DNA of 64,000 nt from Candidatus Contendobacter odensis Run_B_J11 (lineage in GTDB: Bacteria; Pseudomonadota; Gammaproteobacteria; Competibacterales; Competibacteraceae). Each line of letters opens with the position of its first letter. Positions within the stretch are counted from its first letter, which is position 1. The DNA lies in contig NZ_CBTK010000298.1 in NCBI RefSeq assembly GCF_000531125.1, positions 1 through 64,000 of the forward strand, in the 5' to 3' direction. The position numbers and the translations under genes were made by a program. Shown piece after piece: positions 1,156-60,195 of this stretch. The notes below the pieces were generated by a model that ran no database searches, was not told the origin of the DNA, and was given only the letters and a program-made list of their open reading frames with translations.

Positions 1156-2349
1156 ATGAAAATTCTAATGCTTTCGGACGTGTATTTTCCGCGTGTGAAC
1201 GGGGTTTCTACATCCATTCAAACTTTTCGCTGCGAATTGCAGCGCTTGGGGCACGAAATCTGGGTAGTCGCACCGGATTACGGCCAGCCGACTGCCGATG
1301 AAGACCGGATCTGCCGGGTGCCGTCCCGCCAGGTATTGCTTGATCCCGAAGATCGGATGATGCGGCCCAACTTGTTGTCGCGGCGGTTGGCGGAACTACG
1401 CGCCCATCAGTTTGACATCGTGCATATCCAGACCCCGTTCGTCGCCCATTATGCCGGCGTCCGACTGGCGCAGCAGTGGGGCGTGCCCTGCGTCGAGACC
1501 TATCACACCTTTTTCGAGGAATATCTGTTTCATTACTTGCCGGTGTTGCCGAAGCGTGGTTGGCGGGCAGTAGCCCGGCTGTTATCGCGCCGTCAGTGCA
1601 ATCAACTGAATGGGTTGGTGGTGCCGTCGCAAGCGATGCGCGAGGTGCTGGTCCAGTACGGAGTGCGAACCTCGATGCGAGTGATTCCGACCGGGATGCC
1701 GCTGGAATCTTTTCAGGAAGGCGACGGCGCCGCATTTCGGTCCCGCCACAACATCGCCATCGGACAACCGACTCTGGTGTTCGTGGGTCGAGTGGCGTTC
1801 GAGAAGAACATCGAGTTTCTGCTGCATGTGGTGCGGGAACTCCAGCAAACCACCCATCCCGATCTCGTGCTGATTATCGCTGGCGAGGGACCGGCAGAAA
1901 CGTCGTTGCGCCGGCTGGGAACCACCCTCGGGCTGGAGGCCAACCTGCGCTTTGTGCGCTATCTGGCGCGAGGCGTTGAATTGAGCAGTTGCTATCAGGC
2001 GGGTGATGTCTTCGTGTTTGCTTCGCGCACTGAGACTCAGGGACTGGTGTTGCTGGAGGCGATGAGTCTGGGGGTGCCGGTGGTGTCCACGGCGGTCATG
2101 GGCACCCGCGACATTCTGGCGGCGAACCAAGGCGCGCTGGTCGCCGAGGAAAATGTAGCGGGTTTCGCCACTCAGGTGCGCCGGGTGCTGGACGATGCCG
2201 AACTGCGCCGCCGCCTGTGTGCGGAAGGGCGGATTTATGCCCGGCAGTGGGCAGCAGAAGGTCCGGCCCAGGCGTTGCTGGCGTTCTACGCCGATCTCCG
2301 GGCCGGGCGAGTGACGGACAGCAACGCTCAGGAATTCAGCAAGCGGTAG
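1156..2349 (+). CDS. GT4-family glycosyltransferase
   Basis: A 397-residue GT-B fold glycosyltransferase. The N-terminus (MKILMLSDVYFPRVNGVSTS) carries the glycine-containing donor-domain opening typical of alpha-mannosyl/glucosyl transferases that act on glycolipids. The C-terminal half has the family E-x7-E region (ETQGLVLLEAMSLGVPVV, near residues 295-312) that binds the nucleotide-sugar donor. It probably works at the inner face of the cytoplasmic membrane. Its last 22 bases overlap the 3' end of the convergent parA-like gene. The acceptor and sugar are not determined. Confidence 0.88.
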   Translation: MKILMLSDVYFPRVNGVSTSIQTFRCELQRLGHEIWVVAPDYGQPTADEDRICRVPSRQVLLDPEDRMMRPNLLSRRLAELRAHQFDIVHIQTPFVAHYAGVRLAQQWGVPCVETYHTFFEEYLFHYLPVLPKRGWRAVARLLSRRQCNQLNGLVVPSQAMREVLVQYGVRTSMRVIPTGMPLESFQEGDGAAFRSRHNIAIGQPTLVFVGRVAFEKNIEFLLHVVRELQQTTHPDLVLIIAGEGPAETSLRRLGTTLGLEANLRFVRYLARGVELSSCYQAGDVFVFASRTETQGLVLLEAMSLGVPVVSTAVMGTRDILAANQGALVAEENVAGFATQVRRVLDDAELRRRLCAEGRIYARQWAAEGPAQALLAFYADLRAGRVTDSNAQEFSKR

Positions 2350-3092
2350 AGCGCCTCGAACTCCCGGCTCAATTTGTGTTTGGGGTCAAGATGAATCATC
2401 GGCAGCGCCTGAGCGTGTGATTCACGGATTTTGATCGAGGCCGAAAGAAATGCCTCCAGCACCGGCAAGCCCTCGGATCGCAGTTCTTCGACCAGGCGCA
2501 CCGGCAGGTTGGCGCGGGCCTGATAGTGGTTGACCACGATCCCTTCAATCCGCAGCGCGCGGTTATGGTCGGCCTGAATCTCGCGCACGCTGTCCATCAG
2601 CGTGTACAGGGCGCGGTGGGAAAAATCGTCGCAATCGAACGGGATCAGGCAGGTGTCAGCAGCGATCAATGCCGAACGGGTGTAGAAATTCAGCGCGGGC
2701 GGAGTGTCGATGAAAACATCGTCAAATTCGGTGAAGGTCTCCATCGCCTCCCGCAGCTTGTACATCTTGTAGCGTGATTCCAGCTTGATTTGCAGGTCTT
2801 CCAGCCGGGGATCGGAGGGCAGGACGCTGAGATTAGGAAACGGAGTTTGAACGATATAGGCAGCGGGTTTATCAGCAAACATCTTGTAGGTCAGGATGTC
2901 GTCGAAAAAATGGGCCAGGGTTTTCTTCTGCTCATCCAACATATTACCGAGCAGGTAGCGGGAAGCGTTGGCCTGCGGATCCAAATCTACGACCAGGGTT
3001 CGTCGACCCTGAGCGGCGCCGATGGCGGCCAGATTACAAGTAATGGTGGATTTGCCCACCCCTCCTTTCTGGTTGAAAACGACTCGGCGCAT
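2328..3092 (-). CDS. ParA/MinD-family ATPase, orphan
   Basis: A 254-residue P-loop ATPase with a deviant Walker A motif (KGGVGKST, residues 9-16), a Walker A' region DLDPQAN near residues 37-43 and a Walker B-type DTPP near 130. These are the hallmarks of ParA proteins, which position DNA or protein cargo by ATP-dependent cycling on the nucleoid. No ParB gene or parS-like cluster is visible next to it, so it is an orphan here. Its cargo could be a plasmid-derived locus, granules or a membrane machine. The gene converges on the glycosyltransferase with a 22-base overlap. Confidence 0.88.
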   Translation of the reverse strand: MRRVVFNQKGGVGKSTITCNLAAIGAAQGRRTLVVDLDPQANASRYLLGNMLDEQKKTLAHFFDDILTYKMFADKPAAYIVQTPFPNLSVLPSDPRLEDLQIKLESRYKMYKLREAMETFTEFDDVFIDTPPALNFYTRSALIAADTCLIPFDCDDFSHRALYTLMDSVREIQADHNRALRIEGIVVNHYQARANLPVRLVEELRSEGLPVLEAFLSASIKIRESHAQALPMIHLDPKHKLSREFEALYRLLNS

Positions 3093-3193: not shown

Positions 3194-3222
3194 TTGACGC
3201 AGTGCAATATAAACTCTATACT
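3194..3222 (+). promoter_or_regulatory. sigma70-type promoter of small RNA candidate 1
   Basis: TTGACG at 3194-3199 and TATACT at 3217-3222 are separated by exactly 17 bases, which is a near-consensus sigma70 promoter. No ORF with a ribosome binding site starts before the terminator at 3278-3307. Confidence 0.7.
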
Positions 3223-3228
3223 GCAACG

Positions 3229-3307
3229 CAACATTCATCGTGAAAGTTGTCCTCCAATCCTCCTTTGGTGGTTCTTTGCCGAGGTCATCAACGACCTCGG
3301 CTTTTTT
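3229..3307 (+). ncRNA. candidate small RNA, copy 1 of a tandem pair
   Basis: A predicted transcript of about 79 nt runs from a start about 7 bases after the -10 box to the T tract of a strong terminator. It contains two CCTCC blocks (around 3251 and 3260) that could pair with Shine-Dalgarno sequences, followed by TTTGGTGGTT. The same layout recurs 133 bases downstream. The terminator stem differs between copies by a pair change that keeps pairing (A-T here, G-C there), which favours a functional RNA. No known RNA family was recognised. It lies between the divergent parA-like gene and msrQ. Confidence 0.55.
3278..3307 (+). terminator. Rho-independent terminator of small RNA 1
   Basis: A 9-bp stem (GCCGAGGTC at 3278-3286 with GACCTCGGC at 3293-3301) closes a 6-base loop and is followed by six T residues. 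Confidence 0.85.
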
Positions 3308-3326
3308 ATTGCGGTTGCAAAAAAAC

Positions 3327-3356
3327 TTGACGCACTGCAACATAATCGCTTATTTT
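3327..3356 (+). promoter_or_regulatory. promoter of small RNA candidate 2
   Basis: TTGACG at 3327-3332 is the counterpart of the first copy, exactly 133 bases downstream. The best -10 match is TATTTT at 3351-3356 with an 18-base spacer, weaker than in copy 1. The shared core GACGCA(G/C)TGCAA after the -35 box could be part of an operator common to both copies. Confidence 0.5.
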
Positions 3357-3362
3357 ACGCCC

Positions 3363-3437
3363 TAACATCGTTTAGATGTTGTTGTTCCCAACTTCCTTTG
3401 GTGGTTATTTGCCGGGGCCTAAACCCCCGGCTTTTTT
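3363..3437 (+). ncRNA. candidate small RNA, copy 2 of a tandem pair
   Basis: A predicted transcript of about 75 nt is homologous to the one 133 bases upstream. It keeps the CTTCCTTTGGTGGTTATTTGCC core and ends in a GC-rich terminator. The 5' part has diverged more than the core and terminator, as expected when the functional part is the C/T-rich segment plus the hairpin. It could act as an antisense RNA on ribosome binding sites; this is inference. Confidence 0.5.
3411..3437 (+). terminator. Rho-independent terminator of small RNA 2
   Basis: A 7-bp stem (GCCGGGG at 3411-3417 with CCCCGGC at 3425-3431) is followed by six T residues. It is the counterpart of the terminator at 3278-3307. Confidence 0.85.
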
Positions 3438-3535: not shown

Positions 3536-4168
3536 ATGTTTTCCCTCATGACTCCGCAGCAACCCCGCCTGATTTCGCGACTGGGCAAACCGCTGGTATT
3601 CATAGCCAGCTTGTTGCCTCTTGTTTGGCTGTGCTGGTTGATTAGGCAGGGACAGTTGGGCGCCAATCCGGTTGAGACCCTCAGCCACCATAGCGGCGAC
3701 TGGAGCCTGCGCTTTCTGCTATTGACGCTGGCGGTGACGCCATTGCGGCGGTTAACCGGCTGGAACCGCCTGCAACAGTTTCGACGGATGCTAGGCTTAT
3801 TTACTTTCTTCTATGTCTGCCTGCACTTTGGCGTCTATTTGATTTTTGACCAGTTTTTTGATCTGCGGGCGATCATCGAGGATGTCGCTCAACGACCCTA
3901 TATCACGGTGGGCTTCGCCGGTTGGCTGCTGCTGATTCCTCTGGCCGTGACCTCAACCCACACGATGATCAAGCGACTGGGACGGAATTGGCAGCGATTG
4001 CACCGGCTGGTTTATGTTATTGGTGCACTGGGTGTCCTGCATTATCTATGGCTGGTCAAGGCCGATCTGACCGAACCGCTGGTTTATGCCGGAGTGTTGG
4101 CGGTGTTGCTGGGCTATCGGCTGTGGTGGTGGACTCGCTCGGCCAGGATCGCCCGCTCCATCCGCTAA
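3536..4168 (+). CDS. msrQ: MsrQ (YedZ) heme-binding membrane subunit of methionine sulfoxide reductase
   Basis: A 210-residue polytopic membrane protein of the ferric reductase-like family. MsrQ passes electrons through heme to the periplasmic molybdoenzyme MsrP, which repairs oxidised methionines. Five or six hydrophobic segments are visible, with family-typical histidines in YVCLHFGVY (near residue 101), TSTHTMIKRLGRNWQRLHRL (near 143 and 157) and GVLHYLW (near 169). The start at 3536 could be replaced by the ATG at 3551. The msrP gene normally found beside it is missing here, so the partner must lie elsewhere or be lost. Confidence 0.9.
   Translation: MFSLMTPQQPRLISRLGKPLVFIASLLPLVWLCWLIRQGQLGANPVETLSHHSGDWSLRFLLLTLAVTPLRRLTGWNRLQQFRRMLGLFTFFYVCLHFGVYLIFDQFFDLRAIIEDVAQRPYITVGFAGWLLLIPLAVTSTHTMIKRLGRNWQRLHRLVYVIGALGVLHYLWLVKADLTEPLVYAGVLAVLLGYRLWWWTRSARIARSIR

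Positions 4169-58471: not shown

Positions 58472-60195
<1,724 letters not shown>

Follow-up and report, generated by a model that had tools for sequence, protein, structure and literature searches.

Tandem small-RNA genes of Candidatus Contendobacter odensis carry PhaR-type promoter boxes and a seed predicted to pair with lutA leaders

The window analysed here is a stretch of 64,000 nucleotides from Candidatus Contendobacter odensis Run_B_J11 (contig NZ_CBTK010000298.1, positions 1 to 64,000). Its positions 3194-3437 hold two tandem sRNA units spaced exactly 133 bases apart. Each unit begins with a TTGACG -35 box (at 3194 and 3327), which is followed after 17-18 nt by a -10-like hexamer, and ends in a terminator with a six-T run; the terminators start at 3278 and 3411, again a spacing of 133, and their stems have 9 and 7 pairs, respectively. 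A first-pass annotation made from the letters alone had reported this repeat with the same coordinates, and the A-T versus G-C difference that it noted at one pair of the terminator stems was confirmed.

2328-3092, - strand: ParA-family gene, the other flank of the sRNA pair
3194..3222, + strand: promoter of sRNA 1 (TTGACG, 17 nt, TATACT), kept in relatives
3229..3307, + strand: sRNA 1, about 79 nt, start inferred; covariance model R1 E = 1.2e-14
sRNA 1 layout, + strand: 5′ hairpin 3229-3249, UCCUCC 3250-3255, seed, terminator
3263..3273, + strand: sRNA 1 seed CTTTGGTGGTT, near-invariant, with a conserved complement in lutA leaders
3278..3307, + strand: sRNA 1 intrinsic terminator with T run (fold and covariation)
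3327..3356, + strand: promoter of sRNA 2 (TTGACG, 18 nt, TATTTT)
3362..3437, + strand: sRNA 2, about 76 nt, start inferred; 5′ hairpin, seed, terminator; R1 E = 5.9e-13
3396..3406, + strand: sRNA 2 seed CTTTGGTGGTT, near-invariant core
3411..3437, + strand: sRNA 2 intrinsic terminator with T run (site scan and fold)
3536..4168, + strand: msrQ (NCBIfam MsrQ above cut-off), downstream context outside the mechanism

Both units combine an independent promoter with an intrinsic terminator carrying a U tail, as expected of a trans-acting Hfq-type sRNA. Two promoter-like sites were found against 1.1 expected, a count that alone is about that of chance, and five terminator-like sites against 2.0 expected, which alone is modestly above chance. 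The folding of both RNAs was better than that of 200 of 200 shuffles (z of -5.6 and -3.4). We conclude that the tandem units are two small-RNA genes, decisively because they are conserved in relatives.

Performing BLASTN, we find that the closest relatives match the locus at E = 1e-61 to 8e-97, and that it is spread across the family Competibacteraceae, often with both units and an adjoining msrQ. A strict pattern search of GTDB genomes returned 35 named loci, mostly from Competibacteraceae; the others include Plasticicumulans acidivorans, Rappaport israeli, and other Cardiobacteriaceae. Covariance model R1 matched in 94 of 369 gammaproteobacterial genomes. The window's genome has three copies by this model, and of 16 other genomes of the family 15 have between one and seven. 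The usual class-wide form of these matches is CTCCTCCATCCTCCTTTGGTGGTT followed by a GC-rich terminator. A Competibacteraceae-type locus also turns up in L042 and L065, whose titles name Phycisphaerales GAO1 and Synechococcaceae SM1_2_3; both are probably mislabelled MAGs.

The first-pass annotation had named an absence of conservation beyond the terminators as one outcome that would speak against it. We observed a near-invariant seed, a kept promoter, and a 5′ hairpin with paired changes. In unit 1, 97% of helix cells were paired and eight pairs had two-sided changes; none of 500 shuffles scored as high, and slid controls were 27-48% paired. This signal came mostly from the terminator, with paired changes in both hairpins. 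Pairing-preserving changes had been anticipated in the core; instead, the alignment shows a core with hardly any variation, and compensatory changes that fall in the 5′ hairpin and the terminator. The invariance of the core in alignment A1 arises partly by construction, because the model sequences were picked by their core. Unit 1 of three genus members (L010, L011, L014) has an inserted stretch between the 5′ hairpin and the seed, possibly an extra hairpin.

The units might instead not act in trans at all, serving as an msrQ leader or attenuator or as small coding genes. Mechanical ORFs do overlap the units, in which the first-pass annotation had seen no ORF with a ribosome site, and msrQ lies downstream in many genomes. 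However, these ORFs are broken by stops and frame changes in relatives, which led us to reject coding genes; each unit also has its own terminator, and relatives of the RNA occur at sites without msrQ. We regard such a leader or coding role as very improbable.

A shared operator after the -35 boxes had been suggested earlier. Our analysis supports it and gives it a name: the sRNA promoters share a PhaR-type box, to which PhaR would be expected to bind.

3198..3209, + strand: PhaR-type box 1 of sRNA 1, CGCAGTGCAATA, between -35 and -10; fits the relaxed consensus
3222..3233, + strand: PhaR-type box 2 of sRNA 1, TGCAACGCAACA, overlapping the -10 end and the inferred transcription start
3331..3342, + strand: PhaR-type box of sRNA 2, CGCACTGCAACA; fits the relaxed consensus

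In Bradyrhizobium, footprinting gave TGCRNYGCASMA as the PhaR consensus (PMC6201568), and TGCGCCGCAACA forms part of the phaP1 site of R. eutropha (PMC3570403). Our relaxed pattern, [TC]GC[AG]N[CT]GCA[ACG][ACT]A, which was written after seeing the Competibacteraceae boxes, matches the 64 kb window at just these three boxes and a single further position. A box is present in 24 of 27 phasin upstream regions of the family, and some phasin promoters (e.g. L093) have a second box at the same position relative to the -10 as in unit 1. The phaR locus of the window's genome gave no match to the relaxed pattern.

PhaR (PF07879) was found in all 16 family genomes and in the one other member of the order searched, and also in Plasticicumulans, Rappaport, and three of four further Cardiobacteriaceae MAGs. 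We compared box and PhaR occurrence across 90 genomes of the class, Competibacteraceae included, taking the best sRNA hit of each. A box at the sRNA promoter (-90 to +15) was present in 11 of 27 PhaR-positive versus 1 of 63 PhaR-negative genomes (Fisher 3e-6). Within 300 nt upstream of the sRNA, the counts were 14 of 27 versus 1 of 63 (Fisher 3e-8), and the far upstream stretches of PhaR-negative genomes added no box. Collapsed to families, the comparison gave 7 or 8 of 16 versus 1 of 40 (Fisher 3e-4 and 7e-5). The one PhaR-negative genome with a box, G241, is a MAG of 86% completeness, and PhaR is present in its family-mate G118. Apart from the window's own family, boxes occur in f150 (probably Cardiobacteriaceae), f107, f88, f63, f108, f34, and f73. 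Counting against PhaR control, 16 of the 27 PhaR-positive genomes with the sRNA showed no promoter box by regex. In PhaR-negative genomes, most members of the sRNA family have box-free promoters, which would also suit constitutive or stress-controlled RNAs of the NmsR/RF02278 type that mask many Shine-Dalgarno sequences through CCTCC, the boxes being incidental or serving another regulator. The tracking of box presence with PhaR presence across families argues against that explanation, to which we return below.

Targets were searched by pattern, using AACCACCAAAGGAGGA in relatives and ACCACCAAAG shortly before an ATG in 31 family genomes; such scans miss wobble-rich sites. Among the matches listed, the recurrent site outside the sRNA genes precedes the start of a CCG-domain protein by about 17-28 nt. 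In the window's genome, this site heads the lactate-oxidation operon lutA-lutB-lutC (Pfam), followed by a FAD-linked oxidase. The complement of seed CUUUGGUGGUU, namely ACCACCAAA, was exact in 9 of 13 lutA leaders against a shuffle mean of 0.01. The likeness of these leaders among close relatives comes partly from shared ancestry. In G013, ACCACCAAA persists though the rest of the leader has diverged, and the duplex energy there is average; G008 and G005 have lutA without the exact site. The own-genome lutA duplex reached -25.0 kcal/mol with sRNA 1 and -23.7 kcal/mol with sRNA 2, which rank 2 and 1 among 59 starts; this background, made of the long-ORF starts in the window, is small and rough. 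In fold predictions, a weak hairpin takes up part of the seed, a point against the mechanism that we favor. Judged by these leader sites, lutA is the clearest candidate target of CUUUGGUGGUU, and repression of lutABC would be the predicted outcome.

Weaker candidates are two periplasmic binding proteins and the FAD oxidase. Another possible target is a 90-aa Cys-rich protein that matches nothing in Pfam or NCBIfam; in four genomes (L289, L290, L291, L298), ACCACCAAAG falls right at its ribosome site. Apart from this protein, a further class of hits in the pattern scan, beginning with ACCACCAAAGAGG, had no consistent downstream gene.

Two further copies of CTTTGGTGGTT occur in the genome, one inside an aldehyde-dehydrogenase-like reading frame and the other in a third sRNA paralogue (G000:C311:17709-17781; L004:1450-1560, minus strand), which has the same seed and no PhaR box. 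Because this paralogue shares the seed without the box, control of lutA need not depend on PhaR. The third paralogue is present in most family genomes and has a conserved stretch upstream, resembling TAGTATGTTTACTCTAAA, that is probably another operator.

The control logic suggested here is that of MmgR, which lowers phasin expression (PMC12542648, PMC9049629). PhaR-controlled sRNAs could then serve as a storage feedback whose main targets are the mRNAs of phasins or other PHA genes, and not carbon catabolism. Genome G014, which has seven sRNA copies, carries one (C12:104497-104562) about 170 bp upstream of a same-strand phasin gene (104729-105004), in line with such a feedback. Against it, nine phasin starts ranked 10-54 of 59 in duplex energy for sRNA 1 and sRNA 2, within the background, and ACCACCAAAG was not found in the phasin leaders examined. 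We rejected phasin mRNAs as targets of sRNA 1 and sRNA 2 on this test, which among PHA genes covered the phasins. One good duplex score was obtained between sRNA 3 and a phasin, that of L078. Altogether, we find a role directed mainly at phasin or other PHA mRNAs quite unlikely.

The first-pass annotation knew of no named family that matches, and this is correct at Rfam gathering thresholds, where the locus has no match. Below threshold, RF02278, ncS16, and NmsRb matched. RF02278 gave 31.5 bits on unit 1 (a score of 19.1 was also obtained) and up to 40.2 in relatives, against a threshold of 50; NmsR (RF02877) gave 23.0 bits, with 35.1 in the best relative and a threshold of 52. These RF02278 scores favor the anti-Shine-Dalgarno explanation introduced above, as does the description of NmsRs as tandem siblings with CU-rich anti-SD segments (PMC5362039). 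Pairing of the CCTCC blocks with Shine-Dalgarno sequences, which had been proposed for this locus, is indeed possible in an NmsR-like manner. However, the conserved site in lutA leaders complements the seed CUUUGGUGGUU, pairing just upstream of the Shine-Dalgarno sequence, and not CCTCC. CCTCC is less supported as the main seed, for CTTTGGTGGTT is kept in both units and a full CCTCC is missing from unit 2. General anti-Shine-Dalgarno RNAs with boxes that are incidental or serve another regulator are, in our estimate, an unlikely explanation of the pair.

Among known systems, MmgR of Sinorhizobium meliloti (alpha-r8) is the closest in control. It is a 77-nt trans-acting sRNA linked to PHB storage, and its promoter holds a PhaR (AniA) site (PMC12542648, PMC9049629); PhaR represses it (PMC12542648). 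Here, likewise, a PhaR-type box lies in the sRNA promoter and PhaR is encoded in the genome. The likeness is one of regulation: MmgR is alphaproteobacterial, and the targets published for it are phasins, whereas no phasin is a predicted target of the two tandem copies here. NmsRA/NmsRB of Neisseria (RF02877 = NmsRb; PMC5362039) are the closest in layout, being tandem siblings with a 5′ hairpin, CU-rich anti-SD stretches, and a terminator; the sibling arrangement is found here in the two units 133 bp apart and also in many relatives. Like the action proposed for the Competibacter pair, NmsRs act on central-metabolism mRNAs around the SD, but they are linked to RelA rather than PhaR and silence TCA and methylcitrate genes, whereas our pattern scans point to lutA. 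RF02278 (Burkholderia ncS03, ncS05, ncS27, ncS62; PMC4603805, PMC5688073) is the closest in sequence, with a short double hairpin, UCCUCC blocks, and several copies per genome. Its consensus lacks CUUUGGUGGUU, and no PhaR link was found in PMC4603805 and PMC5688073; its members are described as toxic when cloned in E. coli (PMC4603805). The sRNA pair thus belongs to neither the MmgR nor the NmsR family, and it falls short of RF02278 as well. The PhaR-phasin regulon (Bradyrhizobium, Ralstonia; PMC6201568, PMC3570403) uses this 12-base box too, likewise overlapping the promoter. At our locus, the gene under the box encodes an sRNA, and the literature searched gave no gammaproteobacterial case.

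According to PMC3079617 and PMC12542648, PhaR is bound to phasin promoters until PHB granules titrate it away. By analogy with this mechanism, we propose that each sRNA has a sigma-70-type promoter of its own, over which PhaR boxes lie, and that both would be made when forming granules titrate PhaR. The transcripts would end at the intrinsic terminators with U tails, and their seed CUUUGGUGGUU would pair with mRNAs bearing ACCACCAAA(G) shortly before the start codon. Such pairing would block lutA translation, silencing lutABC and other carbon-use mRNAs, and storage status would be fed back onto carbon use. Transcription, PhaR binding, the direction of control, lutABC repression, and any role of Hfq or ProQ are inferred parts of this scheme. 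Taken jointly, we consider it probable that the pair are trans-acting sibling sRNAs controlled by PhaR and silencing lutABC.

In feast-famine reactors, Competibacter and Plasticicumulans are important as bacteria that store PHA. To our knowledge, little is known about how their storage status feeds back on carbon use. In the literature searched, we found nothing relevant on Competibacter sRNAs or the core sequence. If the proposal is true, it would link PhaR directly through an sRNA to a lactate operon, add a second PhaR-controlled sRNA besides MmgR, and provide a describable RNA family carried by roughly one in four of the sampled gammaproteobacterial genomes. We give roughly even chances to a broader view, in which a widespread gammaproteobacterial sRNA family outside Rfam was put under PhaR in several PHB-storing lineages, with granule-induced shutdown of lactate oxidation and other carbon-use genes; this would be a post-transcriptional branch of PHB control with an origin independent of MmgR.

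Elsewhere in the window, at 59761-60049, Rfam RF02514 (5′ ureB sRNA) matched with 117 bits, which may just mirror the conserved urease coding sequence.
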